Of a DNA stretch of 44,656 bases, positions 1 through 43,699 are shown one piece after another; position 1 is the stretch's first letter, and every line of letters begins with the position of its first letter. The stretch comes from Gracilibacteraceae bacterium (GTDB taxonomy: Bacteria; Bacillota; Desulfitobacteriia; Desulfitobacteriales; Syntrophobotulaceae). Location of the stretch: assembly GCA_031266805.1 (NCBI GenBank), contig JAISAH010000108.1:1-44656 (forward strand), read 5' to 3'. The notes below the pieces were generated by a model. That model was not told where the DNA came from. It made no database searches and saw only the letters and a list, made by a program, of their open reading frames with translations. The translations under genes were made by a program, and so were the position numbers.

Positions 1-1377
1 GCCCGTAAGGGTCAGGCCCGTCACGTTCACATTCTTATTCGCGCCGGCGGCGGCATTGTCGAAAACGGCGGCTGCCCCGCTCAGATCCACAGAGACGTCG
101 TCCGCGCCCACTTTGCCCGTGAGGACCGGCGTCCCGGCGAGCTTGGCGGCGGTCGTCCCGTTATACGTCTTGGTCTCGACGCTCAGACCGGTCAGCGTCA
201 GGGCCTTGGGTGCGATGGTGAAACTGACAGACGCCGCGGCGCCGGTGGTTCTGTCAACACCGGCGACGGTGTAATCTCCGGCTTCCGAAGGCTTGACCGC
301 AGTCGGGCCGTAGGCGACCACGCCGTCCCGCAGCGTGCCGGAGTAGGAGTAGTCAATATTGGCGCTGTTTGCCCCTCTGACCTGAGGATTAGCCAATTGG
401 CCACCATAAACGGCGCCGGCTTGGGTCAGAGTAAAAGAGATGGGAGAACCGCTGCCGCCCGTGTTTTGCGGGGTGTAGAGGAAATAGGGATCGCCGTTTC
501 CGTCTGTAACGCTTTCGTCCGTGTTTACTGCAGTGTCGCTTAATCCGGTGATAGCGCTCCGAGATGGTAGATAGTTGTAATCAATATAAAGATATTCCAG
601 CGCGGGGTTATTGCTTACGTCCAACTCCGTCAGTTTGTTGCCGGAGCAGAAAAGGTGTTCCAAAGGGTTATTGCTCACATCCAGCGCAGTCAGTTGATTG
701 TTCGCACAATAAAGCATCCTCAGTCCGGAGTTATTGCCCACATCCAGCGTCGACAGTTGATTGTCGCCGCAGTTAAGGTAATAAAGCCCCATATTGTTGC
801 TTACATCCAGATCTGTCAGCTGATTGCCGTCACACCAAAGCGTCTCCAGCATGAAGAAATGCTCTATCCCCGCCAAGCTGGCGATATTACGGCCGCTGAC
901 ATCTAAACTGGTTATATCCATGACATCCGAGTCATAAATCGGGTCGCTGGGAATACCTGTCATTTCACGCACAGCCGCCAGAAAATTCGCGTCGATAAAA
1001 TCATCTGTTATATCGTTGGGACCACCGCCGCCGCTGGCAGACCTGATGACTGTAACCAGACAATCGGCGGTTTTATCACCGACCGCGGCCGTAATCGTCG
1101 CAACGCCTGTAATATGCCCCGCCCTCACTTCGCCGTCAGTCACCGTCGCCACGTTCGAGTCGGAACTCGTCCAAATAGCGGTTATATCATCAGTAGTGTT
1201 ATCCGGGTCATAGATTACGTTCAGCGCGAATGTCCTGCCTGTTCCCAGATTAAGCGACGTTTGATTTAAGGAAATGGACTGCAAAGGAACCGCCGCCAGC
1301 GCGCCGCCAGCCGGAACCAGAGTCAGCAGCAATACCAGAGCGACTAAAATGATAAGCAGGCCTTGAGTTTGCTTCAT
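1..1377 (-). CDS. Exported leucine-rich-repeat surface protein, 3' end cut by window edge
   Basis: The frame stays open for 459 codons from an ATG at 1377 to the window edge, so the C-terminus is missing. A signal peptide is clear: Lys near the N-terminus, a run of Leu/Val/Ile, then an Ala-rich cleavage region near residue 28. Residues ~30-112 look like a bacterial Ig-like (Big_2) domain. Residues ~150-290 hold about six leucine-rich repeats of ~21 residues with the recurring pattern L..L.C..NQLT.LDVSNN. Residues ~330-400 look like an MBG-type beta domain. The last ~60 residues match the YDG-type adhesin repeat (start VETKTYNGTTAAKL). An AAGGAG site lies ~10 nt before the ATG. The protein is probably wall-attached or secreted and may act in adhesion; that role is inference. 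It has a ~510-nt leader containing a repeat module shared with the gene starting at 25156. Confidence 0.85.
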   Translation of the reverse strand, partial: MKQTQGLLIILVALVLLLTLVPAGGALAAVPLQSISLNQTSLNLGTGRTFALNVIYDPDNTTDDITAIWTSSDSNVATVTDGEVRAGHITGVATITAAVGDKTADCLVTVIRSASGGGGPNDITDDFIDANFLAAVREMTGIPSDPIYDSDVMDITSLDVSGRNIASLAGIEHFFMLETLWCDGNQLTDLDVSNNMGLYYLNCGDNQLSTLDVGNNSGLRMLYCANNQLTALDVSNNPLEHLFCSGNKLTELDVSNNPALEYLYIDYNYLPSRSAITGLSDTAVNTDESVTDGNGDPYFLYTPQNTGGSGSPISFTLTQAGAVYGGQLANPQVRGANSANIDYSYSGTLRDGVVAYGPTAVKPSEAGDYTVAGVDRTTGAAASVSFTIAPKALTLTGLSVETKTYNGTTAAKLAGTPVLTGKVGADDVSVDLSGAAAVFDNAAAGANKNVNVTGLTLTG

Positions 1378-1708: not shown

Positions 1709-1878
1709 ATGTAACATTTTATCTAAAATGTTACATCCCCCCGGAAACCCTTGGGAAATCAGGCGTACAAAAAACCGCCGGAGGGCCGGCGGCGGGATTT
1801 CAGAAGCGAAGGAGGCGCGGAGAGACAGAGAAAATCAAGGTCTTCGGCTTATGTAACATTTTAGATAAACTGTTACAT
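1709..1878 (-). promoter_or_regulatory. Leader module copy 1 (two TGTAACA palindromes around a conserved core)
   Basis: A perfect 13-bp inverted repeat (1709-1721/1724-1736, arms ATGTAACATTTTA) and a near-perfect one (1851-1878) flank ~115 bp of sequence. The same layout and much of the same core recur at 25303-25475. On the minus strand the core holds GAAGACCTTGATTTT, a CCTCCTT motif, and a GC hairpin at 1775-1792 (CCGCCGG/CCGGCGG) followed by six T, which is a textbook intrinsic terminator. The module lies between the probable promoter (1896-1936) and the LRR gene. It may be an attenuating leader, a short RNA, or a miniature mobile element. Confidence 0.7.
1769..1792 (-). terminator. Terminator-like hairpin inside leader module copy 1
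   Basis: On the minus strand a 7-bp GC stem (1786-1792 with 1775-1781, loop of 4) is followed by TTTTTT. It lies ~390 nt upstream of the LRR gene start, so it could act as an attenuator or end a short leader RNA. Confidence 0.65.
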
Positions 1879-1895
1879 TACATCCTTTAAAGACC

Positions 1896-1936
1896 AGTAT
1901 ACCATATTCCGGTCACACAGCGGTCACAAAACGCAA
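1896..1936 (-). promoter_or_regulatory. Putative promoter block of the LRR gene
   Basis: The minus strand reads TTGCGT at 1936-1931 and a TATACT -10 at 1901-1896, separated by 29 bp that contain an 11-bp tandem unit (TGTGACCGCTG then TGTGACCGGAA). The same block with the same 29-bp gap lies upstream of the gene at 25156, and a version lacking one unit drives rnhA at 18428-18457. The 29-bp gap is too long for an ordinary sigma-A promoter, so an activator is likely. Confidence 0.55.
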
Positions 1937-2030
1937 TATTTTTTTCGCGCGACAAATTTCCCCTCCTTCCCGATGAATTTTTCTGTTCTATATTATAGCC
2001 ACTTACCGCGCCTCATGGTATAATTATTCT

Positions 2031-18358: not shown

Positions 18359-18427
18359 CCGCGTCCCTTCCCTCCCCTCCTTGATTTGGATGCTGGATCC
18401 GCGCGCCGTCTCCATATTTCAGGGATT

Positions 18428-18457
18428 ATTATATCACCGGCGGGCCACAAAACGCAA
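18428..18457 (-). promoter_or_regulatory. Promoter of rnhA
   Basis: On the minus strand TTGCGT (18457-18452), an 18-bp spacer and TATAAT (18433-18428). The block is nearly identical to the promoter blocks of the two large surface-protein genes, but lacks one 11-bp unit between -35 and -10. Confidence 0.8.
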
Positions 18458-18461
18458 TCCA

Positions 18462-18597
18462 GCCAAACTCGGAAGTAAATAACGGCCAAACTCGGAAGTA
18501 AAATCAGGCCAAACTCGGAAGTAAAACTAGGTCAAACTCGGAAGTAAAACTAGGCCAAACTCGGAAGTAAAAGCTTGACAAACTCGGAAGTAGAGGC
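18462..18597. repeat. Six-copy 23-bp tandem repeat array (iteron-like)
   Basis: The core CAAACTCGGAAGTA recurs six times with an exact 23-bp step (copies start near 18463, 18486, 18509, 18532, 18555 and 18578). Spacers between cores are short and partly conserved (AACTAGG). The last copy overlaps the spacer of the promoter at 18575-18603. It is too short and too regular to be a CRISPR array. An operator array for a cooperative binding protein is the best reading. Confidence 0.9.
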
Positions 18598-18603
18598 TAT
18601 CAT
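18575..18603 (+). promoter_or_regulatory. Promoter of the DUF4143 ATPase gene
   Basis: TTGACA (18575-18580), a 17-bp spacer and TATCAT (18598-18603). The -35 is created by a single variant base in the sixth repeat, and the spacer is the repeat core itself. The predicted start (~18610) excludes the ATG at 18608. Confidence 0.82.
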
Positions 18604-18637
18604 TTAGATGTATCCTGCACTTTGGAGGCCTTGCGGC

Positions 18638-19903
18638 ATGAAACGGAAATATTTAAAGCGTATCGTGGACGATGTGCTGAATGCCGCGCTGGAGTCGTCC
18701 GGCGCGGTGCTGATAGAGGGTCCGAAATGGTGCGGAAAGACCCGGACGGCGGCGGAATGGGCCGCCAGCAAACTGCTCATGCAAGATCCGGACTATGCGG
18801 AAGCATATCTAAAAAGCGCCGATATAAAGCCTTCGCTGCTGCTGAGAGGCGAAACGCCGCGCCTGATCGACGAATGGCAGACGGCCCCTGTGCTTTGGGA
18901 CGCGGTTCGTTTCGCGGTAGACCAGCGGGGAGAGAGCGGGCAGTTTATCCTGACCGGATCAGCCGTACCGGAAGACGACGTCGTTCGGCACACCGGCACG
19001 GGTCGAATCGCGCGGCTGCTTATGCGGCCGATGACCTTATTTGAATCGCTGGAATCCAGCGGCGACGTTTCACTAAAAGCCTTATTTGACGAAGACTGCG
19101 GCGGAGAGGGGCTGTCCGCGCTCTCCGTCGAGCGGATAGCCTATGCGCTGACGCGGGGAGGATGGCCCGCCTCGATCGGCGAAAAGGAGTCGGCCGCCCT
19201 GCGGCGCGTATATGATTACGTCGACGCGGTCATCAACATCGACGTGTCCCGCGTGGGCGGCGTTGAAAAAAGTCCCGCCCGCGTCCGCGCTTTAATGCGC
19301 TCTCTGGCGAGGAATGTCTCCACGATGGCGAATTTTACGACCATAAAAAATGATATCGCCGGCGATGAGGACACAATTTCCGAAAAAACGATATCCTCCC
19401 ACCTGAACGCCCTGCGCCGTATTTACGTTGTGGAGGATTTGCCCGCTTGGAATCCGGCTATGCGCTCCAAGACCGCGCTGCGAACTTCCCCCAAACGCCA
19501 TTTCACCGATCCGTCCATCGCCGCCGCCGTACTCCGCGCCACGCCGGACAGCCTGCTTGCCGACTTCAATACTTTCGGGCTGTTGTTTGAGTCTCTTTGC
19601 GTGCGCGACTTGCGTGTATACGCGCAAGCGATAGACGGCGAGGTTTTCCACTACCGCGACAAAAGCGGGCTGGAAGCGGACGCGGTCGTCCATTTGAAAG
19701 ACGGGCGCTGGGGCGCGGTCGAGGTCAAGATGGGGGCGAAGGAAATTGAAACCGCCGCCGGGAACCTGAAAAAACTCCGCGAAAAAATCAACGCGGACAA
19801 AATGCGGGAGCCGTCATTTTTGATGGTGCTGACCGCCACGGAATTAGGGTATCGCCGGGCCGACGGCGTGTATATCGTCCCGATTGGCTGCCTGAAACAC
19901 TGA
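18638..19903 (+). CDS. AAA-family ATPase with DUF4143 domain
   Basis: The 421-aa protein has a Walker A motif (EGPKWCGKTRTA, ~26-37), a Walker B region (RLIDEWQ), a sensor segment (FILTGSAVP) and a C-terminal DUF4143 domain with a PD-(D/E)XK-like core (DKSGLEADAVV...WGAVEVKMG). This widespread family has no settled function; toxin-like or defence-related roles have been proposed. I place the start at 18638 because GGAGG lies just upstream and the promoter would start RNA after the earlier ATG at 18608. The 23-bp array covers its promoter, so tight control is likely. Confidence 0.88.
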   Translation: MKRKYLKRIVDDVLNAALESSGAVLIEGPKWCGKTRTAAEWAASKLLMQDPDYAEAYLKSADIKPSLLLRGETPRLIDEWQTAPVLWDAVRFAVDQRGESGQFILTGSAVPEDDVVRHTGTGRIARLLMRPMTLFESLESSGDVSLKALFDEDCGGEGLSALSVERIAYALTRGGWPASIGEKESAALRRVYDYVDAVINIDVSRVGGVEKSPARVRALMRSLARNVSTMANFTTIKNDIAGDEDTISEKTISSHLNALRRIYVVEDLPAWNPAMRSKTALRTSPKRHFTDPSIAAAVLRATPDSLLADFNTFGLLFESLCVRDLRVYAQAIDGEVFHYRDKSGLEADAVVHLKDGRWGAVEVKMGAKEIETAAGNLKKLREKINADKMREPSFLMVLTATELGYRRADGVYIVPIGCLKH

Positions 19904-20050: not shown

Positions 20051-23000
20051 TCAGACCGCCGGGCCGCCGAAGCCGTAGACTTTGGTTTCCGGGGTCACGG
20101 GGCCGAGGTTCAGGCCAACCGGATCGTTTCGCGGCGTGAGCAGGACGACCGACCGAGTCTTGGCCGCCAGAGCCGAACCGGTCAGCGCGTCCACCAGCGT
20201 GACGCCGTTCGCGAAATACACGATGTCGTACATAAAGGTGAGAGAATCACGCATACTTTGGTTCGTGGCGTAACGGTCCTCGCCGTAGATCCGGGTCAGG
20301 CCGCTCACGTCCTGCACGAGACTCGGGCCGCCCAGGACATAGCCGCCGAGAGAGGAGTCGCCGCCGAATGCCGCGTCGGGAGCGGCGATCTGGATCACAT
20401 AGCCGTTGGCCGCCGCGAACGAGGCTGCGGACACCGCGTCGGCTACGGCGCCATAACCTACGACAAACGTTCCCTGCGGGGCCGTGATGCGGGCGTTGAT
20501 CAGTTTAGCCGTCTCCACCCGGTTCGCGCCTTGCAGCACGATGATCTCCATGGCCGGGAAGCGCGCTTGGAGCTGATCGGCCACGCCTTGGCCCAGCGAG
20601 CCCACAACATAGGCTTTGCCGGCGCCGAGCCGCGCGATCTCTGTGAACACGTTTTCACGGATGCTGTTGTTTAGCACGAGCAGAATCGGGATGTCGTCCT
20701 GTCCGGCGAGGGAGGAAACGGAGAGAGCGTCGATGATATGGTCGTTGTCGCCGGGGGCGAGGATCACGGCCTCAGCGGAGGTCCAGCCGGCTTTCGAGAT
20801 GGAGATGGCCGTCTCTGTTCTGTCCGCGCCGTAGATATAGCTGATGGCGGACGTGGGCAAAGCAGCCAGAGGAACTTCTTCCTCCGTGACGATGATGGAA
20901 CCGCCGCCCCCGCCGCCGCTGTCGCTGCTGGGCGCGGGGAATATGGCCGGGAATTTCGCTGTAACTGTCTGGTTAACAGCGTCATATCCGAGACCGCCTG
21001 TCGCGCCGGGGATATTGGTTATACCAATCAGCGCGTAATTGGGATTAGGCAGGCTGATTTTGGCGGCATACGGGGTGTAGGCGGCAAAAGCCGCATGAGA
21101 CGGCTCCCACTCCACAGTCAGCGTAAACTCGCCCATGGTGATATTGGTAACAGGCGTGCCGCCTATACTTGGAGTCAGGATAACCGGTGCGGTGACGGTC
21201 ACAGGCCGCGGATCAACGGTGAAATGCAGCGCGACCGAACGGGTAGCACCGCTGCCGCTGACGGTCAGAACCGCGTTGTAGGTTCCCGCGGACAGTCCGG
21301 GCACCGGACTGATACTGACGCTCACTGTATCATTCGCGTCTACATCGAAAGAGCCGATGGGGTCAAGTATCTCGAAAGCGTCAGGGTCAGTCCCTTCGAG
21401 ACTTAAACTCACATTCTTCCAGTCTACAGCGCCGGTGTTGGAGATAGTGACGGGTTTCGGGTCAATTGGGTCATAGCCGTAGTACACGGCGGTAAAAGTG
21501 GTGTCAGGTGTGACGGAGTAGGAACCGCTGACCGGGGGATCCGGAGGCGTTGAGGTTTCCGGTGTGATCGTGATAGTCAATGATTTCGTGGCATCGCCCG
21601 CGTTGTTTGCGGCTTTCACGGTGAAAGTCGCCGTTTCTGCCGTCGTGGGCGTTCCGGAAATTTCACCTGTGGCGGAGTTCAACGACAAACCGCCCGGCAA
21701 ACTTCCGATTTCAACGCTCCATGTGATAGGCGCGTCGCCATTGGCCGCGAGGGTTTTGCTATAAGACTCGCCTACTTTGCCGTCCAGCAGACTTGTCGTG
21801 GTAATCGTCGGCGCTGTGAGGGCCGGCAGAGCGGGATCTATGACGATAGACAGTTCTTTTGAGTCATCGCCCGCGCTGTTTTCGGCCTTCACGGTGAAAG
21901 TCGCTGTCTCTGCCGTCATGGGCGTTCCGTAAATCACGCCTGTAGTGGTGTTCAACAACAAACCGCCCGGCAAACTTCCGATTTCAACGCTCCATGTTAT
22001 GGGTGCGTCGCCGTCGGCCGTGAGGGTTGCGCTATAAGACTCGCCCACTTTGCCGCCCAGCAGAGTTGTTGTGATGATGCTCGGCGCCGTTGGCGCAGGA
22101 TCTATGACGATAGACAGTTGTTTTGTGTTATTGCCCGCGCTGTTTTCGGCCTTCACTGTAAAAGTCGCCATTCCAGCCGTCGTGGGCGTCCCGTAAATCT
22201 CTCCTGTAGTGGTGTTCAACAACAAACCGTTCGGCAAACTCCCACTGCTGGGTTCAATGCTCCATGTTATGGGTGCGCTGCCATCAGCCTCAAGGGTTTG
22301 CTTGTATGCCGCGCCTACTGTGCCGCCCAGCAGACTTGTTGTGGTGATGTTTGGCACCGCTGTCACCGTAGCCATGCCCTCTGTCTCAGCGATCACTGTA
22401 TTATCTGAAGCTTTTACCTTTATACTATATTTAAAGGTTCCGGCCTTTTCCCCCTTGACTTTCAGAGCTACATAACCCGTTCCCTTCGCCAGATCAAATG
22501 CTGGGAAATTGATTGTTCCGGTACCATCACTATTGTCTGTTATCGTCAATGATTGATAACCACTGCCGTCGCCGGGATCATACTCCAGATCCAAGTCGCT
22601 TACGGCCAAACCGTCAAAATCGCTCAGTTCAATGACCGCTGTCACATTCGGCACTTCCTCCGTGCTGGTGGACTCAACGCGCGCTTCACTCCACTTTCCG
22701 GCCACCAAATCGCCAAGCCCTTTCGCTTCTATTCCAGACGTTGGAATGGCGACCAGTAATTCTTTTTGGGCCAGTGAGAAGGTGTAGCTCTGCGAATTAT
22801 ATTTGAACTGCGCTTCCGCAGTAACTGTGACTGGACCGGTGGCGTCGGGAGCTTTAGCATAGAGTATATTGCCCTGAATTTCAAAGTCGTTGTCGTTGTC
22901 CAAGGCATACCGGAAACTGATACCCATATTTTCGATGAATGCTTTATACTTGTCATCATAGACTAAATCGTCGTAATTTGTGGCCAACGAGTACAACGGC

Positions 23001-25156
23001 TCTTTGTAGTAACTGGGATTCTCATTGGTTGCTGTAATTGCTACCAAGCCTTTGCCGCTGATGTAATCAGCCACGTAGTGGATGTTGTTGTAAATCTTTG
23101 TCAGATAAACTTTCAGCTTACTGACTTCTGCTGTATTAGCGGCAATGAGACCATTGATGAAATTAGCCGCTTTAACATAATTTTTGGCGATAACCTTGGC
23201 TGCCGCTGGAGTCAGCGTCCAGTCATCATCAGCGAATACATACCCCCACAACTCATCGCCGTCAGGTACAGCAGCGGACAAGGCGGACAAGGATGATGGC
23301 AATGCATCTTTGACAATTTGGAGCAAAGAGTCGTCAAGCAAATTTATGATGTATTCTTCGACCTCGGATCCGCTAACGTTGAGATAATCATTAAGGAATA
23401 TTTTGACAGCGGTCACTTTTGTTTGCAAGGGGGATGGGGTTTGGGATGGATCTTCGCCTAATAAATAGTCCGCACTCATTTTAAGATAATTTTTTAGCAA
23501 TTTGGCGACAGCGTCTACCTGTTTAGATGCTGGATCCGTGAATATTATGCCTCGTTCTTTTAATTCTTTAATGATTTTTTCAATGATAGGGTTAATAGTG
23601 TTTTCGTTAGCAGTCCATAATTTGGCAAATTCGGTGTATAATTTCTCCAAGTCGGTTGTCGGATCAGTAAGCGGAGTAATTGGGAAAAGGCTCATCATAG
23701 ACATTGTCTGCGGTTTGGGATCTTCATAATCTTCCAGTAGTTTCTTGACTAATGCCTTTGCCTTATCAATGATGGTCTTCTCATCCAAAAATCCCTTCAA
23801 CTCATTTATAATATCGGAAGGAACGCCTGCTTTTTCCAGCGCGTCCAGTTCTCCTGCCAGACCGCCGATTATAATGCCCGCTTGCTTCTCTAACTCAACA
23901 AGCGTTAATGTGTCATTCTGTAAATCCAATGCAAGATCATTGAGTTTCTTTACCGTTCTGGTGAAAGTATCACTCAGCACTTTTTTGAGAGTACCCTCAT
24001 CAATGTCCAGATATCCCAAGGCCTTGCCAATGTCCACATCTAAAACCGCGCCAGCATCATCCACTACCAATATGCCGGAAGCAGCTAATAGATCTTTCAA
24101 AGTGGCCTTTTGTAGATCAGGGTCAGGATCGTCGGAAAAAAGATTGGCGAGTCCTTCCAGTTCTGCCTGGAGGTCGGCCATGGTGTGCGCGTCCTGGAGA
24201 TAGGCTTTCGCCAAATCGACAAGTGCAGGCTCACCCGCCAGAACTTCTTCCGCCACGTATTCTACCAAGATATCCGCTATAGAAACGAAATTTTCTGTCT
24301 CATCTTTCGTTTTATCCCCAGTAAGAATGGCATTTACTATGGTGCTTTCATGGCCAGAATAGGTTATACTCTCAAGCGCATCAATAGCATCAAGAAAAGG
24401 TTTTAGAGTATCCAAATCTTCCGCTAACTGCGGCAAAACAGAAAGAATATCGCCATTAGACAGCGAAGCGCTGTATGTTGAAAAATCCACCAGTTTCAGA
24501 GCATCAAAAGCGGCATCCAAGTCGATATTGCCTTTGTTTTCAGAGTTAATGTGAGTCGAACCACTACTAAATGTCACCGCCCCTTTTTGAGTAGCTAAGA
24601 CATTAAATAGGTAATTTAATTCTACAATATAGTTAACATTGCTAATGCTATTTGTTTGGCCTAAGAGTACGATTAAACGTTCAGATAATTTTTGATCTGC
24701 AGTGCCTGCATTAGCGTTATCCACAACAGCCCGCAGGATATGTTCCAATGCTGAACGCAGTTCAGCGGGAACACTATCGCCTTCAATGAACTTTTCCACA
24801 TAGTCTTTAAATATATCATTGAATTGTTTTTTAGAAGCATCATTTAGTTTGAGGATTTTCCCAGCATATGCTGAAGCGATTATTCCAAACGATGACATGA
24901 TGCCAGATCCGTTATCAGGATCAGGGTCACGTTGGTCATAACTTGTAAATAGCCAAGTAGCAAAATCATTATAGCTAAAATCATATGCGTGACGAGTTAA
25001 ATAGCTGTTCAATCGTTCAGGGTAAATACTGATAAAATTATCAACATCACCCTCGCCATAAGCACTTGCCGTCCCCGGCGGCAGTACCCCGAATATCAGC
25101 ATCGTGACCAGCAGCAACGCAATCGTTTTCGACAGTATGGTTTTCCATCCGCGCAT
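20051..25156 (-). CDS. 1701-aa surface protein with Ig-like repeats and three cell-wall-binding (CWB2) repeats
   Basis: A signal peptide (residues ~1-32, ending TASA) precedes ~800 residues of mostly helical sequence that I do not recognise. Residues ~935-1200 hold three He_PIG-type Ig-like repeats of ~88 residues (pattern ITTTSLLGG.VG..Y); these are also near-identical in DNA (about 21556-22355). A beta domain (~1205-1330) and a Gly-rich linker (~1415-1425) follow. The last ~265 residues contain three CWB2 repeats (first begins YIYGADRTETAISIS), which anchor proteins to wall polymers in Clostridia. The start at 25156 follows GGAGGG; the open frame extends to 25234 but the extra part overlaps a dispersed repeat. 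No protease or glycosidase motif is seen. Confidence 0.9.
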   Translation of the reverse strand: MRGWKTILSKTIALLLVTMLIFGVLPPGTASAYGEGDVDNFISIYPERLNSYLTRHAYDFSYNDFATWLFTSYDQRDPDPDNGSGIMSSFGIIASAYAGKILKLNDASKKQFNDIFKDYVEKFIEGDSVPAELRSALEHILRAVVDNANAGTADQKLSERLIVLLGQTNSISNVNYIVELNYLFNVLATQKGAVTFSSGSTHINSENKGNIDLDAAFDALKLVDFSTYSASLSNGDILSVLPQLAEDLDTLKPFLDAIDALESITYSGHESTIVNAILTGDKTKDETENFVSIADILVEYVAEEVLAGEPALVDLAKAYLQDAHTMADLQAELEGLANLFSDDPDPDLQKATLKDLLAASGILVVDDAGAVLDVDIGKALGYLDIDEGTLKKVLSDTFTRTVKKLNDLALDLQNDTLTLVELEKQAGIIIGGLAGELDALEKAGVPSDIINELKGFLDEKTIIDKAKALVKKLLEDYEDPKPQTMSMMSLFPITPLTDPTTDLEKLYTEFAKLWTANENTINPIIEKIIKELKERGIIFTDPASKQVDAVAKLLKNYLKMSADYLLGEDPSQTPSPLQTKVTAVKIFLNDYLNVSGSEVEEYIINLLDDSLLQIVKDALPSSLSALSAAVPDGDELWGYVFADDDWTLTPAAAKVIAKNYVKAANFINGLIAANTAEVSKLKVYLTKIYNNIHYVADYISGKGLVAITATNENPSYYKEPLYSLATNYDDLVYDDKYKAFIENMGISFRYALDNDNDFEIQGNILYAKAPDATGPVTVTAEAQFKYNSQSYTFSLAQKELLVAIPTSGIEAKGLGDLVAGKWSEARVESTSTEEVPNVTAVIELSDFDGLAVSDLDLEYDPGDGSGYQSLTITDNSDGTGTINFPAFDLAKGTGYVALKVKGEKAGTFKYSIKVKASDNTVIAETEGMATVTAVPNITTTSLLGGTVGAAYKQTLEADGSAPITWSIEPSSGSLPNGLLLNTTTGEIYGTPTTAGMATFTVKAENSAGNNTKQLSIVIDPAPTAPSIITTTLLGGKVGESYSATLTADGDAPITWSVEIGSLPGGLLLNTTTGVIYGTPMTAETATFTVKAENSAGDDSKELSIVIDPALPALTAPTITTTSLLDGKVGESYSKTLAANGDAPITWSVEIGSLPGGLSLNSATGEISGTPTTAETATFTVKAANNAGDATKSLTITITPETSTPPDPPVSGSYSVTPDTTFTAVYYGYDPIDPKPVTISNTGAVDWKNVSLSLEGTDPDAFEILDPIGSFDVDANDTVSVSISPVPGLSAGTYNAVLTVSGSGATRSVALHFTVDPRPVTVTAPVILTPSIGGTPVTNITMGEFTLTVEWEPSHAAFAAYTPYAAKISLPNPNYALIGITNIPGATGGLGYDAVNQTVTAKFPAIFPAPSSDSGGGGGGSIIVTEEEVPLAALPTSAISYIYGADRTETAISISKAGWTSAEAVILAPGDNDHIIDALSVSSLAGQDDIPILLVLNNSIRENVFTEIARLGAGKAYVVGSLGQGVADQLQARFPAMEIIVLQGANRVETAKLINARITAPQGTFVVGYGAVADAVSAASFAAANGYVIQIAAPDAAFGGDSSLGGYVLGGPSLVQDVSGLTRIYGEDRYATNQSMRDSLTFMYDIVYFANGVTLVDALTGSALAAKTRSVVLLTPRNDPVGLNLGPVTPETKVYGFGGPAV
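21556..22355 (-). repeat. Three tandem ~265-bp repeats inside the CWB2 gene
   Basis: The three Ig-like units are highly similar at the DNA level. Such in-frame repeats can expand or contract by recombination and change the length of the surface protein. Confidence 0.8.
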
Positions 25157-25302: not shown

Positions 25303-25475
25303 ATGTAACAGTTTACCTAAACTGTTACATTCCTGCGGAAACCCTTGACACATCAGGCGTTCAAGAAACCGCCGGGGGCTCCGGCGGCGGATTTTTCAGT
25401 AAAAAGGAGGGGGCGAAAAGGCGGATAAAATCAAGGTCTTCGCGATTATGTAACAGTTTAGGTAAAATGACACAT
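25303..25475 (-). promoter_or_regulatory. Leader module copy 2 (two TGTAACA palindromes around a conserved core)
   Basis: A perfect 13-bp inverted repeat (25303-25315/25318-25330, arms ATGTAACAGTTTA) and a degenerate one (25448-25475) flank a core that matches copy 1 at 1709-1878. On the minus strand it shares GAAGACCTTGATTTT, CCTCCTT, a CCGCCGG/CCGGCGG hairpin, CGCCTGAT and CAAGGGTTTCCG. It lies between the probable promoter and the CWB2 gene. Confidence 0.72.
25362..25387 (-). terminator. Terminator-like hairpin inside leader module copy 2
   Basis: On the minus strand a 7-bp GC stem (25381-25387 with 25369-25375) is followed by TTTCTTG. The T run is weaker than in copy 1. Confidence 0.5.
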
Positions 25476-25487
25476 CAGCCTGAAATT

Positions 25488-25528
25488 ATTATATCACCTC
25501 CCGGTCACACGGCGGTCACAAAACGCAA
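25488..25528 (-). promoter_or_regulatory. Putative promoter block of the CWB2 gene
   Basis: On the minus strand TTGCGT (25528-25523) and TATAAT (25493-25488) are separated by 29 bp with two 11-bp units (TGTGACCGCCG, TGTGACCGGGA). It has the same layout and spacing as the block at 1896-1936. Confidence 0.58.
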
Positions 25529-25598
25529 TATTTTGGTTCGTGGGAAAATTTTTTATTGTGATTATTTTCACTATGTACATGCTCGAATTGTAATTTTT

Positions 25599-33246: not shown

Positions 33247-33284
33247 GCGGTCGTCGCTTCTAATAGAAACGACTTCGGATAACC

Positions 33285-33323
33285 GGAGGAGTACCCAAGT
33301 GGTGAAGGGGTCGCACTCGAAAT
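33285..33323 (+). pseudogene. 5' fragment of tRNA-Ser(CGA)
   Basis: These 39 bases are identical to the first 39 of the complete tRNA at 33478, from the acceptor 5' strand through the D arm, anticodon 5' strand and anticodon loop. Identity stops just after the anticodon loop. The fragment has the promoter; the complete copy does not. Confidence 0.95.
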
Positions 33324-33477
33324 CAGGTCAGCTTGACGGAAGGGGAAATCGTGGAAACCCTTGATGTATGGCCATTTCCTGGCCGGATCGAAAACTGAAA
33401 ATCTGCTATGTCTGCTCTGAATGTCTGCTCAATTTCCTGAAAAGATTTTGATTCATTCAGAGACTGAACATATACCT
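33324..33477. other. 154-bp insert between the two tRNA-Ser copies
   Basis: No gene is credible here. The stretch has a GGCCA/TGGCC hairpin (33370-33384) and two direct copies of ATGTCTGCTC (33408-33417, 33421-33430; 13-bp step), which resemble recombinase arm sites. The segment looks like the remnant of an element end inserted at the tRNA. Confidence 0.5.
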
Positions 33478-33565
33478 GGAGGAGTACCCAAGTGGTGAAG
33501 GGGTCGCACTCGAAATGCGATAGGCCGGCAACGGCGCGTGGGTTCAATCCCCACCTCCTCCGCCA
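33478..33565 (+). tRNA. tRNA-Ser (anticodon CGA)
   Basis: The 88-nt class II tRNA has a 7-bp acceptor stem (GGAGGAG/CTCCTCC), an anticodon stem TCGCA/TGCGA with loop CTCGAAA (anticodon CGA, reads UCG), a long variable arm (GCCG/CGGC), a T arm GTGGG-TTCAATC-CCCAC and an encoded CCA. Its 3' end overlaps the end of the integrase gene on the other strand. Confidence 0.96.
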
Positions 33566-34800
33566 GAAATCTTCCCCAGCGATGTTTTCTCGATCCAGGT
33601 CATGGCGTTTGCGGATTGCAGCTTGGAATTGAATTCCAGATGCGCGTAGGTATTTGCTGTGATCGCGAAGTCGCTGTGTCCAAGCCATTCCTGAATCTGT
33701 TTGAGGGAGATCCCGGCCGCCAGTAATAGACTGGCGCACGAGTGTCTCAAATCGTGATAGCGCATCCTGCGGAACCCGTTCTTCTCTAAAAACTCCGGAA
33801 ACGCTGTTGTGAGGTAGCCCGGTTTGATCCGTTTCCCAAGCTGATTCACATAGACGTATTGCCCTTCTGCTTTGTCATATGAATTTCCACACAACTTACG
33901 ATAGGTTTCTTGCGCCTGTTTCAGTTCCAGCAATTTTGCCCGAAATTGCGGAACCAGCGGCAGAGTACGAAAACTGGATTTGCTTTTTGTGGTGTCATCT
34001 TCGATGATATAACTTTTACCTTCAAATCTGGTCGTGGTCACGGTATGCTCAATGGTAACGGTGTTCGCCTCAAAATTGATCGCGCTCCATTTCAAACCGA
34101 CCACTTCGCCGCGCCGTAAGCCATAGAAAGCCCCCAAAATAACACCCAATTCCAGTCTATGCCCTTTAACCGCTTCAAACAGTTCAACCGCTTCGGATTG
34201 TTTGAGGAATTTGCCTACAAACCGCTCCGCCTTAGGGCGTTTCACCTTCGCCATGACCGAATGTTCAATCCAGCCTTTTTGAAGCGCCCACTTCAACGCC
34301 TTGTGCATATTGGCATGATATTTATGGACAGAAGTGGCCTTGATGCCTTGCAGTTTTTCAACATAGAAATCATTGATATTGTCCGCTGTCAGATTCTTTA
34401 GCAGAATGCCGCGCTCCCGGAACCATGGAGCAATCACGCTTTTCACATTGAGCCAGTAACCGCCATAGGTCGTCAACTTTATTTCCGTTTTGATAACCGG
34501 CAGCCAACGATGCTCCATAAAATCCGCGAAAAGCATATTCCCCATATCGCCCGGCGCGACGGCCAGCTTCTCCCGAAGTTCAACCATCAGCACATTTTCC
34601 AACTCGGCGCATTTGTCGCGGAGCATCCCCTCCGCCCGTTTCTTGTTGCCCTTGACCGATAGCCCGGTCGAGAGACTTTTGCGGTCGCGGGTTCCGTCCG
34701 GCAGTTTCCAACTGAGCGCCATTTGAAATATGCCGCGCTTTTCCTCGAGATGACCCGCCACTTTGATTTTTTGGTGTTCTTGCAGGTGTGTTGTGTTCAA
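33544..34800 (-). CDS. Tyrosine recombinase (phage/ICE integrase)
   Basis: The 418-aa integrase has an N-terminal arm-binding part, a SAM-like core-binding domain and a C-terminal catalytic domain. All active residues are present: Arg in GLRRGEVVGL, Lys in TTKSKSSFRTL, His-x-x-Arg in HDLRHSCASLL, His in WLGHSD and Tyr in TANTYAHLE. I place the start at the TTG at 34800, because GGAGGG lies 7 bases upstream; the open frame extends to an ATG at 34848. The last codons (Gly-rich) run into the tRNA-Ser 3' end, as expected when int borders the attachment site. Confidence 0.93.
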   Translation of the reverse strand: MNTTHLQEHQKIKVAGHLEEKRGIFQMALSWKLPDGTRDRKSLSTGLSVKGNKKRAEGMLRDKCAELENVLMVELREKLAVAPGDMGNMLFADFMEHRWLPVIKTEIKLTTYGGYWLNVKSVIAPWFRERGILLKNLTADNINDFYVEKLQGIKATSVHKYHANMHKALKWALQKGWIEHSVMAKVKRPKAERFVGKFLKQSEAVELFEAVKGHRLELGVILGAFYGLRRGEVVGLKWSAINFEANTVTIEHTVTTTRFEGKSYIIEDDTTKSKSSFRTLPLVPQFRAKLLELKQAQETYRKLCGNSYDKAEGQYVYVNQLGKRIKPGYLTTAFPEFLEKNGFRRMRYHDLRHSCASLLLAAGISLKQIQEWLGHSDFAITANTYAHLEFNSKLQSANAMTWIEKTSLGKISGGGGGD

Positions 34801-34922
34801 AAATAAACCCTCCGTTCTAACAACAAAGATTCCACCCGCCATTGACAATAACAGTCTAACAGGTGGAATCGGCCGCGTCTACGAGTGCTGCACTTTTCAT
34901 AAAAATTTTATCTTTTGTTTTT

Positions 34923-36241: not shown

Positions 36242-36333
36242 TTGATTTGAGGCTTAATTGGGACCACTTCAGCGTTCACGGTATACTTAACCGCATAAAG
36301 TCAGAGACGGCGATCGAAAGGAGCAAGAGAAAC

Positions 36334-37863
36334 ATGGGCATACTCGCGGTTTATGACACAACCAGTATTCAAAACTACATCTTCTCGTCAAACCAGCTCG
36401 CGGAGAACGTTGGCGGGTCGAAACTGGTCGCTGACATTTTCCATAATGTTTTCTCAAAGGTTCTTCGGAAAATTGAGCCGGAAATGCCGGAATGGCGTGA
36501 CGGCGGAAAGCTAAATCCCGCGTTACAAGCTGCGATCATCTATCAAGGCGGCGGTAATGCCTATGCCGCTTTCGCGGATTATAATACTTTTCAGGACGCG
36601 ACAAAAGACTTTCTGATAGAGGCAAACGAGACCGCGCCGGGTATCGGTATAGCCGTCGCGGCTGTGGAAACGAACTTCGTGGACTATAGATCTGATTTTG
36701 AGATATTGAACAAGCGCTTGACCAGTGTCAAGGGCGGGTTTAATACTCCGGCCTTTGCCGGCAATCAGCCTATTACCAAGCAATCCGAGCGAACAGGGCT
36801 GCCTGTCGTCACAAGGGAAGACGACGAGTTTCTGGATGAAAGCCAAGTGAAAAAACGCGCCCGATATAGGAAATACTGCCAAGAAGAACGAAAGAGCGAG
36901 CTGAAAGACTTCAATGAACTTGCGTTTGAAAAAAACGTGGACAGTCTGATTGCCATTGTTCACGCGGACGGCAACAGTATAGGCACGCGGATAAAAGAAT
37001 TTATGGAACAGGAGCAGCTTGGGAGTTACACTGAAGCCGTTCCTAAGATGCGCAAATTGTCTCAGGCAATTGATGCTTGCTACGAGACTGCATTAAAAGA
37101 TACAATTGACGCATTCGAGTCGGCATATGCCGGGTATATTGCAGCGCTTCGCGCAGAAAACCCTGGCAAGATATACAATGACAAATCTCCAATTCTTGAA
37201 CTCATCAGAGACGGCGACGACATCACGTTTGTAATAGGCGGACGGTTTGCGATTGACTTTGCGACTCGATTGCTGAGAGAAATTGAAAGACAGCCAGATC
37301 CGTTTGGAAACGGTAACGCGCCGTATGCCTGCGCCGGCGTAGTCATATTTCACAGCCATTATCCTTTCTCGGAGGCCTATAAACTGGCGGAAGAGCTTTG
37401 CGCGAGCGCAAAAAAATCTTCCCGGGATTGCGCAGGTTCCTATATCGACTTCCATCTGCACCAGTCGGGAAACGTAGCGGGATTGCAAAGGCTGCGCGAG
37501 CGGCAGTATATGGTTGACAGGAAAACAATATTGCGCCGTCCGTGGCGGATTACAGCCGGCTCTGAAAACGCGCGCCCAAACTTCAAGTGGTTTGAAGGAA
37601 ATGCCAGAGCGATCACAAAAATGCTGCGCAACTCAAAAATAGCGCGTAATAAGATAAAAGCCGTTCGCAACGAGATCGGCGCAGGGGACGGCGCGGCCAA
37701 ACTCGCTATAAATCAACTTCGAGACGCGAGACTACCCACATTCCCTCCGCTCCAAGAAGACGGAGACAGGAGTAAATACGCGGCCTTGTTTGATATTCTG
37801 GAACTTTACGATACCTATGAAAATTTACTGAACAAGGAGGACGCGGCCAATGGTAACGAATAA
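36334..37863 (+). CDS. cas10: HD-less Cas10-like palm-domain protein of a type III effector
   Basis: The 509-aa protein begins GILAVYDTTSIQNYIFSSNQ, a Cmr2/Cas10-type palm start. The first palm region contains QGGGNAYAAF (71-80). The second has HADGNSIG (210-217), RDGDDITFV (292-300) in place of the usual GGDD, and CAGVVIFHSHYPFSEAYKLA (333-352). Cas10 is the large subunit of type III complexes; its palm makes cyclic oligoadenylates after target RNA binding. No HD nuclease domain precedes the palm, so DNA cutting by Cas10 is unlikely. Both acidic residues of DD remain, so cyclase activity is possible. I place the start at 36334 behind AAGGAG; the frame extends upstream to 36247 but has no site there. 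It overlaps the next gene by 14 bp. Confidence 0.85.
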   Translation: MGILAVYDTTSIQNYIFSSNQLAENVGGSKLVADIFHNVFSKVLRKIEPEMPEWRDGGKLNPALQAAIIYQGGGNAYAAFADYNTFQDATKDFLIEANETAPGIGIAVAAVETNFVDYRSDFEILNKRLTSVKGGFNTPAFAGNQPITKQSERTGLPVVTREDDEFLDESQVKKRARYRKYCQEERKSELKDFNELAFEKNVDSLIAIVHADGNSIGTRIKEFMEQEQLGSYTEAVPKMRKLSQAIDACYETALKDTIDAFESAYAGYIAALRAENPGKIYNDKSPILELIRDGDDITFVIGGRFAIDFATRLLREIERQPDPFGNGNAPYACAGVVIFHSHYPFSEAYKLAEELCASAKKSSRDCAGSYIDFHLHQSGNVAGLQRLRERQYMVDRKTILRRPWRITAGSENARPNFKWFEGNARAITKMLRNSKIARNKIKAVRNEIGAGDGAAKLAINQLRDARLPTFPPLQEDGDRSKYAALFDILELYDTYENLLNKEDAANGNE

Positions 37864-39943
37864 GACCATAAAAGTCACTTTGCTTTCCGACCTATGCCCG
37901 GCTTCAGGTGATGGTTTCGCGGGCTTTGTGGACACTGACGTGTGCTTTGACGATAAGGGCCTGCCGTATATCCCGGGCAAACGGCTCAAAGGCTGCCTGC
38001 GCGAATGCGGATTGGATATTATCAGTGTTGACGGAAGCTATGTGGCCGCGTTTGCGAAACTGTTTGGCGAAACCGGGAAACTCGTTCCCGGCGCGCTGAA
38101 TCTCGGAAATGGGCGGCTTGCGGGTTATGATAACATTGCCAGCGCAATCGGCGGCGCTCACCGTTCGGAACTTGCGGAAATCTATACGAGCATTCGCTCC
38201 CGCACGAAAATGGAGGACGGAAAAGCCGCGCCCGGAACGCTTCGTACCGCCAGAGTCCTGAATAAGGCGCAGATATACGAGTTTCCTGTTTCACTCGCCG
38301 ACGATGCTAAAACTGAAACTTATGGTTTTTTCGAAATGTGCGTGAAGTCGCTCCGTTGGATGGGGTTGAATCGCTCCCGCGGACTCGGTGAAATCAAATG
38401 CGCCGTCTTTGATGGCACACCCCAAGGCGGGACAGCATTAAACCTTTCGGATTATGGCGACCAAAAAACGATCTCTTATATGATCGAACTGATAGAGCCC
38501 GTGATTTCCGCGGAGCGCGGCGGAAAACCGCGGGGCTGCGAGGAATACATCTTCGGCAGTTCCATACTTGGCGCGTTCGCGGTCCGGTACATTGAAAAAT
38601 ACGGTGAAAGAAACGGCTTTTCGCGCGAGAACGCATATCAAAACAATGATTTCAGGCGCATATTCCTTGACGGCGCGGTTATTTTCACGGCAGCGCTGCC
38701 TTACAAGGACGGCGCCGTTTTTCACCCTGCTCCCGCGACGCTGAAAACAAACAAGCTTAAGACAAGATTTGCGGACGAATCAGGAGGCATTCCGGATGAA
38801 ACAGAAGGTGAGCTGATTGGTAAATCGCTTGGCGGCTTTGTATCTGTGGATAACGGGCTTGTGAGACGTAGGGACGCGGAAAAAACGACATTTATCCACC
38901 ATGCCAGACCTGCTGACAAAGGCAAAGGACACGCGGGCAAAACCGGCGGCGAGATGTTCACCTATGAGGCGCTGGCGTCCGGGCAGACTTTCGCCGGAAG
39001 CGTGATCGGAAGCGAGGATGACTTGCTGCTGCTGTCCGACCTTTTCGCCGGCGACAGTATTTTAAGGATAGGCCGCTCCCGCACGGCTCAGTATGGCAAG
39101 GCCGAAATCAAGCAACTCTCAGCCGGCGCCAAGGCAAATGAGATAACGCTAAAAAACGGTGATACTTTTCGCCTTGTCGCTGTCACGCCAATTATTCTCG
39201 AAGATGAAAACGGCATAAACACAACGGACATAAATATCATTAAAAACGCGCTGGGCGCGGATTTGGAGATCATTCGCCGCACCTGCTCCGAAACGGTGAT
39301 CGCTGGGTATAACGGCAAATGGCTGTTATCGCGCGGACAAGAGAGAGCGATCGCCGAAGGCGGCGTGGTCGTGTTCAGGTATATAGGGAGCGGCGCGACG
39401 CTGCGGATGAACTTCATTGGCAAGCGTACAGGCGAGGGTTTTGGTCAGATCCGCCTTGAAAACGTGCCTCAAGCGGGAGCGGGTGTGTTCAGGTTATGCG
39501 GGGATGACGCGGCGGCAACGGTCGTCATGGGCAGTACTCTGCCAGAAGTCATCCAACTCCGCAAGATAAAAGCCGCTATAGCCGAAGGCGCGGAATACGG
39601 CGATAAGTTCAAAAATCCCCCGCGAAACGCGAATATGCAAAGGGTTATCGCCGCGTTGCGTGATTCAAACGATTTAGGCGCGTTTGCTAGAAAATTGTGC
39701 GATATCAAACAAGCGGAACAGGAAATTGCGGCGCTGGAGTTCGCAACGGGCAAAGAGAAACGATATTTTGAGACTGACGCGGCGCATTTAGCGGAAAATC
39801 ACATAACAGAATTGCTGACACTGAGAAGCTATAACTTCGTCGCGTATCGAAAATTCCTGTCAGCCGCCGCGCAAAGAATCAAACAAAAAAGACGCGCCAA
39901 TAGTGGATATGCAGGAGAAGGTGGTGACAGCAATGAGGAATGA
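37850..39943 (+). CDS. csx10: Fused Csm3/Csx10-like RAMP protein
   Basis: The 697-aa protein joins several RAMP parts. Residues ~5-190 are Csm3-like, with DDKGLPYIPGKRLKGCLREC (34-53) and the Gly-rich loop NRSRGLGEIKC. Residues ~205-425 fit Csx10 (EEYIFGSSILGAFA; TYEALASGQTFAG; RIGRSRTAQYGKAEI). Residues ~430-540 form a third RAMP-like unit ending GKRTGEGFGQIRLENV. The last ~125 residues are helical and charged. Csx10 marks type III-D systems, where RAMPs coat the crRNA. The helical tail could play the Cas11 role, since no separate small subunit is present; this is inference. AAGGAGG precedes the ATG. Confidence 0.82.
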   Translation: MVTNKTIKVTLLSDLCPASGDGFAGFVDTDVCFDDKGLPYIPGKRLKGCLRECGLDIISVDGSYVAAFAKLFGETGKLVPGALNLGNGRLAGYDNIASAIGGAHRSELAEIYTSIRSRTKMEDGKAAPGTLRTARVLNKAQIYEFPVSLADDAKTETYGFFEMCVKSLRWMGLNRSRGLGEIKCAVFDGTPQGGTALNLSDYGDQKTISYMIELIEPVISAERGGKPRGCEEYIFGSSILGAFAVRYIEKYGERNGFSRENAYQNNDFRRIFLDGAVIFTAALPYKDGAVFHPAPATLKTNKLKTRFADESGGIPDETEGELIGKSLGGFVSVDNGLVRRRDAEKTTFIHHARPADKGKGHAGKTGGEMFTYEALASGQTFAGSVIGSEDDLLLLSDLFAGDSILRIGRSRTAQYGKAEIKQLSAGAKANEITLKNGDTFRLVAVTPIILEDENGINTTDINIIKNALGADLEIIRRTCSETVIAGYNGKWLLSRGQERAIAEGGVVVFRYIGSGATLRMNFIGKRTGEGFGQIRLENVPQAGAGVFRLCGDDAAATVVMGSTLPEVIQLRKIKAAIAEGAEYGDKFKNPPRNANMQRVIAALRDSNDLGAFARKLCDIKQAEQEIAALEFATGKEKRYFETDAAHLAENHITELLTLRSYNFVAYRKFLSAAAQRIKQKRRANSGYAGEGGDSNEE

Positions 39944-41267
39944 TAATCTCAACCCGGTAATCAGGCGAATCGCGGTTAAAGCTAACTGTATTCTGCGAAC
40001 TCCCGCGCTCATCGGCAGCGGTTTTGGCGAAAACACTGACAGCGATGTCCTGCGCGACGCGAGCGGCGCCCCGTTCCTGCCCGGCTCAACCGTCGCCGGC
40101 GTGCTGCGTTTTCTCTGCAGTGAAGCGGAAACATTGTTCGGCGAAGCAGATAGCGTCAGCCCGCTGTGGGTATTTGATTCCGAGTTTTTAGGCGCAAGCG
40201 TCGTTGAATTTAACGGCGTTGAACTCGACTATGATAATAAAGTCACGCGTGAAAAGAAAAAATATGATTTTGAAGCGATTGACACAGGAGCAGGCTTTAC
40301 GTTGCGCCTGTTGCTCACAATTCGTGAAGACGATAAAAGCAAAGATTATGAAACGCTTCTGAAAAAACTGCTCGGCGCGCTAAAATTTGGCGGTCTCGCT
40401 TTTGGGGCGAAAACAAGGCGCGGTTTTGGGCGTGTGGAATGTGTATCTGTGGATCAGCGCGCCTTTGAATTGACAGAGGGGAATAAGAAAGGGCTTCAAA
40501 ACTGGTTGGATTTTCTTGAATACGATGAAGAATCACGGATTGACGGGTGGAAACGCCCTGATGGTTGGGAGAAGGCGTCAACTGATGAATTCTCAAGCAA
40601 ATATTCTACTCTCGCTGCCACTCTGACAATTGACGGCAGTATCATGATTCGTGACACGCGGAATGTATATCGCGGCTTGCGTGAAGGGGAGAAAGCAGCT
40701 GACTGCGCGCATATTTCAAGCGCCGGCGAACCTGTCGTCCTTGGCACTTCCTGGGCGGGCGCCTTTCGTTCCGGACTGTACAGGTTGCTGAAACAGAAAT
40801 TCCCTGCAAAAGCCGAAACATATCTCAACTCCGTATTCGGCTATGTTAAAGAAGCGAGCTATGACAGGAAAACTGTTGCCGCGGTTTCGCAGATTATATT
40901 CGGCGCGTCGTTTCTCGAAGCGGTTGATGAAAATATTGACGGGTACAGGAATATTACCCGCGTAAAAATCGACAGATTTACAGGCGGCGCAGCCAACGGC
41001 GCGCTGTTCAGCGAAAAACCCTGGTACGGCGGCAAAACAACAGTTGAAATACGTTTCCCGAAAGGCAGAGACGACATAAAAGAACTGCTATTGCTGGGAC
41101 TTGACGGCATTGACAAAGGTTTAATGCAAGTAGGCGGCGAGACAGCGGTCGGGCGTGGATTCTTTCAATTAGCGGACGACGCGGCCGTTGACGGGATAAA
41201 AACGACAGTCAGCGGGCCGAAACTGAAACTTGCGGACGCAATTCAGAAAGCGGGTGAATCGGTGTGA
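39933..41267 (+). CDS. Tandem Csm3-like RAMP protein
   Basis: The 444-aa protein has two RAMP domains. The first (~10-172) has GENTDSDVLRDASGAPFLPG (32-51) followed by STVAGVLRF, and a Gly-rich loop AKTRRGFGRVE. The second (~225-425) has VVLGTSWAGAFRS and GGETAVGRGFFQL. Csm3 subunits form the backbone and cut target RNA with an Asp before the PG(S/T) loop. Asp residues (38, 42) are present in domain 1, and domain 2 has Asp257 in a similar place, so slicing may be retained; this needs a structural check. I chose ATG 39933 behind AAGGTGGTGA; the frame extends to 39903. It overlaps the upstream gene by 11 bp. Confidence 0.82.
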   Translation: MRNDNLNPVIRRIAVKANCILRTPALIGSGFGENTDSDVLRDASGAPFLPGSTVAGVLRFLCSEAETLFGEADSVSPLWVFDSEFLGASVVEFNGVELDYDNKVTREKKKYDFEAIDTGAGFTLRLLLTIREDDKSKDYETLLKKLLGALKFGGLAFGAKTRRGFGRVECVSVDQRAFELTEGNKKGLQNWLDFLEYDEESRIDGWKRPDGWEKASTDEFSSKYSTLAATLTIDGSIMIRDTRNVYRGLREGEKAADCAHISSAGEPVVLGTSWAGAFRSGLYRLLKQKFPAKAETYLNSVFGYVKEASYDRKTVAAVSQIIFGASFLEAVDENIDGYRNITRVKIDRFTGGAANGALFSEKPWYGGKTTVEIRFPKGRDDIKELLLLGLDGIDKGLMQVGGETAVGRGFFQLADDAAVDGIKTTVSGPKLKLADAIQKAGESV

Positions 41268-43665: not shown

Positions 43666-43699
43666 TGAAACAGAAATCCTGGAGACAGGGGGGTTGAAG

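Follow-up and report, generated by a model that had tools for sequence, protein, structure and literature searches.

What is a module of about 170 bp doing in front of two large surface-protein genes, and why does it carry a palindrome at each end? The question arises from a 44,656-nucleotide stretch of DNA from a Gracilibacteraceae bacterium (the window), in which a first-pass annotation had read the two copies as leaders that might act through RNA, either by attenuation or by releasing a short trans-acting transcript. Part of that reading stood, in that the module is a terminator-bearing leader between promoter and gene that recurs before surface-protein genes. No support was found for an attenuating or trans-acting RNA as the main mechanism. 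The module is very probably a phase-variation switch of the cwpV type, an invertible terminator in the 5' leader of mostly surface-protein genes that is inverted by a tyrosine recombinase.

Anatomy of the two modules in the window

Sequence checks and alignment returned the two copies at exactly the positions first given for them, 1709 to 1878 (170 bp) and 25303 to 25475 (173 bp), with 73 to 79% identity over aligned blocks. Both contain the parts described as shared, namely the end palindromes, a core with GAAGACCTTGATTTT, the motif CCTCCTT, and a minus-strand hairpin followed by a T-run. Both also hold these parts in the same order and orientation before a large minus-strand gene with a signal peptide, with a promoter-like block on the outer side. 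The ends of each module are near-palindromes of 28 bp. The first-pass annotation did not mention that, within a module, one palindrome is the inverted repeat of the other and has the same 6-bp centre, TATCTA...TAGATA in the module at 1709 and TACCTA...TAGGTA in the module at 25303.

The first module precedes gene A (1 to 1377, minus strand, incomplete at the window edge), for which the open reading frame and Pfam matches indicate a large secreted surface protein with a signal peptide and Big_2, LRR_4, and YDG domains. Sequence and a genome pattern search place its putative gene-side recombination site, ATGTAACATTT-TATCTA-AAATGTTACAT, at 1709 to 1736; the promoter-side site, ATGTAACATTT-TAGATA-AACTGTTACAT at 1851 to 1878, has a centre that is the inverse complement of its partner's. 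Between them lies the predicted invertible core (1737 to 1850, minus strand), which an orientation test and in silico inversion assign to the OFF, or terminating, state relative to gene A. Within it, an intrinsic terminator at 1769 to 1793 (minus strand; hairpin GCCGCCGGCCCTCCGGCGGT and then a T-run, about -15 kcal/mol) is gone once the core is inverted in silico. Outside the invertible segment is a predicted promoter block (1894 to 1945, minus strand) with a -10 element, TATACT, at 1896 to 1901 and two TGTGACC boxes, 11 bp apart, at 1911 to 1916 and 1922 to 1927.

The second module is laid out in the same manner before gene B (20051 to 25156, minus strand; start codon at 25156 or 25171), which by open reading frame and Pfam encodes a secreted surface protein of about 1,700 amino acids with a He_PIG domain and 273-bp internal tandem repeats. 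Its putative sites, located by sequence and genome pattern search, are ATGTAACAGTT-TACCTA-AACTGTTACAT on the gene side (25303 to 25330) and ATGTAACAGTT-TAGGTA-AAATGACACAT on the promoter side (25448 to 25475). The core between them (25331 to 25447, minus strand) was likewise assigned to OFF relative to gene B by the orientation test and in silico inversion, so that both window copies read as OFF in the assembly. Folding and in silico inversion identified its intrinsic terminator at 25361 to 25387 (minus strand; hairpin CCGCCGGAGCCCCCGGCGG and then TTTCTT, about -14 kcal/mol). The predicted promoter block, again outside the invertible segment, spans 25485 to 25534 on the minus strand, with TATAAT at 25488 to 25493 and TGTGACC boxes at 25503 to 25508 and 25514 to 25519, 11 bp apart.

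The promoter block at 1894 to 1945 is common to C108b, C136, C69a, C69b, C59, C115, C149, and C14, making nine loci including one with a solo site (contigs of the window's own genome, G000, are numbered with C). The paired TGTGACC boxes suggest that an activator is involved. Blocks with the paired boxes also occur without a switch at G000 C35:11354-11401, C76:5202-5249, and C117:17463-17495 and at G002 C3:507-559, which suggests a wider activator regulon, perhaps under an OmpR-type response regulator.

Several other features of the window were recorded. At 18425 to 18615, promoter-block-like sequence is followed by six 23-bp direct repeats (CAAACTCGGAAGTAAAA...) just before an AAA_14/DUF4143 ATPase gene (18608 to 19903); the repeats could be an operator array. 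The segment from 33279 to 34848, likely an element integrated at a tRNA gene, contains a tRNA-Ser gene (33478 to 33565), a 45-bp duplicate of the 5' part of the tRNA, and an adjoining 444-amino-acid integrase. A row of genes with Cas10/Cmr2-palm and RAMP domains at 36247 to 44554 represents a type III CRISPR-Cas effector module. Finally, a short dispersed palindromic repeat, TGGATTCCGGGACAAGCCCGGAATGAC, is found at 1426, 13862, 14385, 19941, 25206, 25599, 29404, and 29484; many of its copies are intergenic, and both orientations occur.

Sites in the genome and in its relatives

The genome of the window comprises 3.38 Mb in 152 contigs, the window being contig C108. Searching it for the palindrome, a check that had been recommended at the outset, gave 34 forward matches to the 28-mer pattern and none to the reversed control, far more than chance would supply. 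Nearly all matches were paired, with start-to-start distances mostly of 142 to 146 bp even though the cores differ, and further relatives emerged when the module served as query in a BLAST-type search. Complete pairs were present at no fewer than 16 loci (C12, C14, C15, C30, C58, C59, C69, C93, C97, C102, C108 [two], C115, C128, C136, and C149). Additional copies are cut by contig ends (C21, C54, C98, and C142), and one site, C69b, stands alone. Because contigs break inside modules, these counts are lower bounds, and we estimate about twenty switches in this bacterium.

Relatives of the module family came from the same genus and from two Oscillospiraceae metagenome-assembled genomes (MAGs). 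A search of 73 genomes from the order found the sites in the genus alone, and the recombination site was absent from the viral contigs scanned. All genomes were MAGs or single assemblies, and a few low-quality pairs in shifted register or arising by chance (four arm mismatches in one site) were excluded from the counts. MAG Gx481_bin119 (G025) contained 56 sites.

Matched centres within each site pair

The 28-mer consists of two 11-bp arms, ATGTAACANTT and AANTGTTACAT, flanking a 6-bp centre. The arms account for its palindromic look and the centre gives the site its direction. Across 57 two-site loci in six genomes, the centres of a pair, compared in inverted orientation, were mismatched at 0 of 342 positions, while the arms were mismatched at 108 of 1,254. 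The corresponding probability (4e-14), which treats the loci as independent, is no more than indicative; the 21 distinct centres found among the 57 loci, each matched within its pair, are the sturdier argument. In G000, TATCTA was the centre at most loci, with TACCTA at C59, C108b, and the cut copies C21, C54, and C142, and with TACTAA and ATACAT at single loci. A sister genome, G003, has the same arms with a centre of its own at each locus (TTAGTA, TAATAA, TATGAA, TTAATA, TAGAAT, ATACGA, and TTGAAT), pair-matched throughout. When partners were shuffled within genomes, the full set of matches was reached in 1 of 10,000 shufflings for G003 (7/7) and in 0 of 10,000 for G000 (16/16).

Tyrosine recombinases need the same sequence between the cleavage positions of both partner sites, and this overlap can differ from locus to locus. 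Centres that are matched within pairs and variable between loci are thus the signature expected of tyrosine-recombinase inversion sites, and an operator or an RNA hairpin would have no need of them. Since centres differ between loci, a site would recombine only with its partner at the other end of the switch. A fully symmetric centre, TATATA, was observed in G025 at C204, C235, C283, C306, C345, and C351 (L220, L204, L219, L212, L216, and L217), before varied downstream genes; such a centre cannot distinguish inversion from deletion.

Cores in opposite orientations

Comparisons between paralogous loci, which stand in here for the two states of one locus, revealed cores in opposite orientations. 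The promoter block of C14 is that of C115, C149, and C108a, while its core can be aligned only when inverted (gene-sense orientation). Against C115, the C14 promoter was 81% identical, and the core was 46% identical forward and 74% inverted. Against C108a, the core alignment scored a z of 0.8 forward and 16.1 inverted. A BLAST-type search agreed, placing the promoter and core of C14 on opposite strands. Similar cases were found in relatives. In G003, the promoters of C191 and C46 were 78% identical and their cores 35% forward versus 81% inverted; in G025, the gene-side flanks of C111 and C298, which precede paralogous genes (MKKHLQIHG...), were 86% identical and the cores 48% forward versus 86% inverted. 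The core of G025 C244 was inverted relative to seven relatives, and core alignment put that of C12 in the second orientation as well.

Terminators on one strand only

In the common orientation (A), 20 of 32 modules carried a hairpin and T-run terminator directed toward the gene, compared with 0 of 32 after in silico inversion (B) and with 5% of base-shuffled cores. The remaining 12, mostly outside G000, lacked a clear intrinsic terminator, so that Rho or another mechanism would be needed there. The pyrimidine fraction of the OFF strand was 0.59 to 0.74 in most modules versus 0.33 to 0.37 in flipped copies, a bias that could help to recruit Rho. CCTCCTT, which had been listed as an element of the shared core, turned out not to be strictly conserved: sister copies have CCGCCTT, CCCCCTT, or other variants, and only a pyrimidine-rich tract is kept. 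From these features, the orientation of the core would set the expression of the gene.

The solo site C69b (G000:C69:14446-14473; L050:13447-13474) has a canonical promoter block on one side and a gene-side flank on the other, and precedes a gene for an LRR_5 (BspA-type) surface protein. It looks like the scar of a core deletion that would leave the gene permanently locked ON.

Genes downstream of the modules

Most proteins encoded downstream appear to be secreted, with signal peptides read by eye and Pfam domains that include CWB2, LRR, YDG, Big_2, aBig_2, NEAT, FMN-binding, and papain plus lectin-like domains. As the module recurs before surface-protein genes, it would co-regulate them. Non-surface targets comprise TnpB (C58 and C128), an FkbM methyltransferase (C30), and a Crp-family regulator (G003 C73). 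The two TnpB genes are near-identical, are of the IS605 type with a Cas12f1-like TNB domain, and are directly preceded by modules (L048:7754-9090, G000:C58; L055:1-2377, G000:C128); they are possibly phase variable.

A candidate recombinase

A family-wide PF00589 scan, together with extraction of proteins from the genus, identified a tyrosine recombinase of 191 amino acids, about the size of FimB or RecV (G000 C135:7483-8055). It is present in one copy in all five genomes of the genus (58 to 98% identity), including one that is 67% complete and in which no site was detected (G004), and is absent or only distantly represented elsewhere in the family. The protein consists of the PF00589 catalytic domain alone, without an N-terminal core-binding domain, and all six residues of the catalytic R-K-H-R-H-Y set are invariant among 16 homologues. 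Its scores against the NCBIfam "tyrosine-type DNA invertase" models fell below the cut-offs (PRK09871, 49.7 bits versus 222; PRK09870, 28.1 versus 221), and it is not filed as FimB or FimE.

In G000 itself, the gene adjoins no switch and lies near chromosomal genes of the rpmH/rnpA/mnmE type (named by eye from translations). Among relatives, G025 has five homologues with 57 to 71% identity, and a matched site pair adjoins four of these and one in G026 (MAG Gx485_bin225) at a distance of a few dozen to about 50 bp. Such pairs separate the recombinase from a divergent gene, and in three or more instances the product of that gene is secreted. More distant homologues occur beside a site or site pair in G014 and G028 and inside a pair of matched inverted sites of about 830 bp in G020 (L157) and G027 (L161); the latter arrangement makes up a self-contained cassette, possibly the form from which the system arose. 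Because homologues sit beside or inside site pairs, the enzyme family is tied to the site family, and the 191-amino-acid protein is the one we infer to invert the modules in G000. A set of tyrosine recombinase paralogues of about 300 amino acids (G000 C72, C79, C83, C89, C104, and C144) was set aside because it had only one relative in the genus (G003 C113) and no adjoining sites.

DNA inversion weighed against other explanations

Matched centres, inverted cores, and recombinases beside or inside site pairs in relatives can all be read from the sequence, as can the site anatomy and the one-sided terminators. The first three argue for switching by DNA inversion and not by RNA refolding, and from the sequence we infer that inversion takes place in living cells. 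An attenuating leader, whose RNA would respond to a signal by changing between folds built from the palindromes, core, and terminator, thereby ending transcription or letting it continue, would account for a terminator in the leader. It would also fit predicted folds in which the palindromes and subterminal CCTTG/CAAGG segments pair across the module, although inverted repeats pair in this way automatically. It leaves unexplained the locus-specific, inverted-matched centres and the inverted cores (C14, C191, C244, and C111/C298), and no Rfam family matched the modules, the sole Rfam match in the window being the tRNA; we regard attenuation as highly improbable. No better placed is a short trans-acting RNA of about 100 nucleotides that ends at the terminator and pairs through CCTCCTT with Shine-Dalgarno sequences. 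The OFF state does offer a defined promoter-to-terminator unit of about that length, and such an RNA could be its by-product. However, CCTCCTT was rejected as an anti-Shine-Dalgarno element owing to its lack of conservation across copies (in the ON orientation it reads AAGGAGG, without a start codon at a usable distance), the second palindrome and the fixed 142- to 146-bp spacing would be superfluous, and inverted copies would not produce the RNA.

Mobility of the module itself would be suggested by its dispersal in about 20 copies that end in inverted repeats, and by the TnpB genes that follow two of them, as in a MITE-like nonautonomous transposable element with 28-bp ends. Yet conserved sequence extends past both ends into the promoter block and the tcgg-type gene flank, and the ends vary between loci while matching within a locus at six central bases. 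Scattered copies and target-site duplications had been named in the first-pass annotation as marks of such an element; the copies were found in gene leaders, with conserved flanks on both sides, and those examined had no target-site duplications. We give transposition very little credence. Equally hard to credit are Xer/dif-like sites, comparable to plasmid pdif modules, worked by the housekeeping XerC and XerD. The 28-bp 11-6-11 layout fits them, and the module arm resembles a XerD arm, but the two arms are symmetric, where XerC and XerD halves would differ. Moreover, Xer-type proteins occurred in 25 of 25 family genomes searched, whereas the sites were found only in this genus, and in relatives it is the small recombinase, not Xer, that sits at the sites.

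Under the favored explanation, an invertible terminator, the recombinase encoded on C135 would act in trans, binding all four 11-bp arms in a pair of inverted 28-bp sites, and strand exchange across the identical 6-bp centres would invert the core of about 115 bp. The external promoter would always fire into the module. In the OFF state, the transcript would meet the GC-rich hairpin and T-run, together with the pyrimidine-rich tract, and end after about 100 nucleotides; in the ON state, no terminator would form and the gene would be transcribed. If such switching is real, about 20 independent switches could give a population of this bacterium as many as 2^n different sets of surface proteins.

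A broader scheme is possible, though we would sooner doubt it than adopt it: a barcoded, genome-wide combinatorial coat switch in which one recombinase family serves 20 to 30 invertible terminators per genome, each with its own 6-bp "address" (as in G003 and G025), and in which G000 loci sharing TATCTA also recombine with one another, shuffling promoters, cores, and surface genes or deleting the core. The hypothesis of shuffling between loci draws on the shared centres of G000, the apparent locked-ON scar at C69b, and the odd flank of C30, a promoterless module whose outer flank resembles the gene-side flank of other loci.

Comparison with known systems

To our knowledge, invertible terminators have been described at very few loci, chiefly in Clostridioides difficile, and a mostly open-access literature yielded no account of these sites as a family or of any genome so rich in such elements. 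In these uncultured Clostridia-like bacteria, the modules would constitute a multilocus invertible-terminator regulon whose recombination code can be read, with identical arms flanking a variable 6-bp overlap matched only within each locus. Dozens of natural site pairs would be available for testing how overlap identity governs the choice of partner. The family also offers a simple sequence signature for spotting such switches in metagenomes and a compact candidate recombinase together with its sites.

The closest known system is cwpV of C. difficile, with an upstream promoter, an invertible segment in the leader, an intrinsic terminator proposed to form only in the OFF state, and a tyrosine recombinase, RecV, that is encoded elsewhere (Emerson et al. 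2009, PMC2784873). Both systems place inverted repeats around a segment shorter than about 300 bp in the leader of large cell-wall protein genes, with the promoter outside and a terminator in one orientation. They differ in that cwpV is a single locus whose 195-bp segment is bounded by imperfect repeats of 21 bp, whereas here some 20 loci share a near-palindromic 28-bp site around a core of about 115 bp. Several of the targets carry CWB2 domains, as do the Cwp proteins. RecV serves several C. difficile switches, whose inverted repeats in strain R20291 are mostly unrelated in sequence (PMC5903667). One of these, the flg switch, has a 154-bp invertible segment in the leader and acts after transcription initiation, the OFF state requiring Rho (PMC7446863). 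The invertible leader segment is common to flg and the modules, while most G000 modules have intrinsic terminators, though Rho could act on their pyrimidine-rich OFF strand as well.

Mpi of Bacteroides fragilis inverts promoters. According to the citation in PMC5903667, this one enzyme acts at 13 or more loci. The likeness lies in a master recombinase that serves many loci and targets surface structures; Mpi is a serine recombinase, whereas the enzyme proposed here is a tyrosine recombinase acting on terminators beneath an external promoter. A survey of invertons in gut bacteria likewise treated promoters as the moving part and named terminators as future work (2025; PMC11892184). With FimB and FimE, the candidate shares a length of about 190 to 200 amino acids, a catalytic domain without further domains, and weak matches to PRK09871 and PRK09870, but its scores are far under the cut-offs, and it forms a distinct clade with sites of its own.
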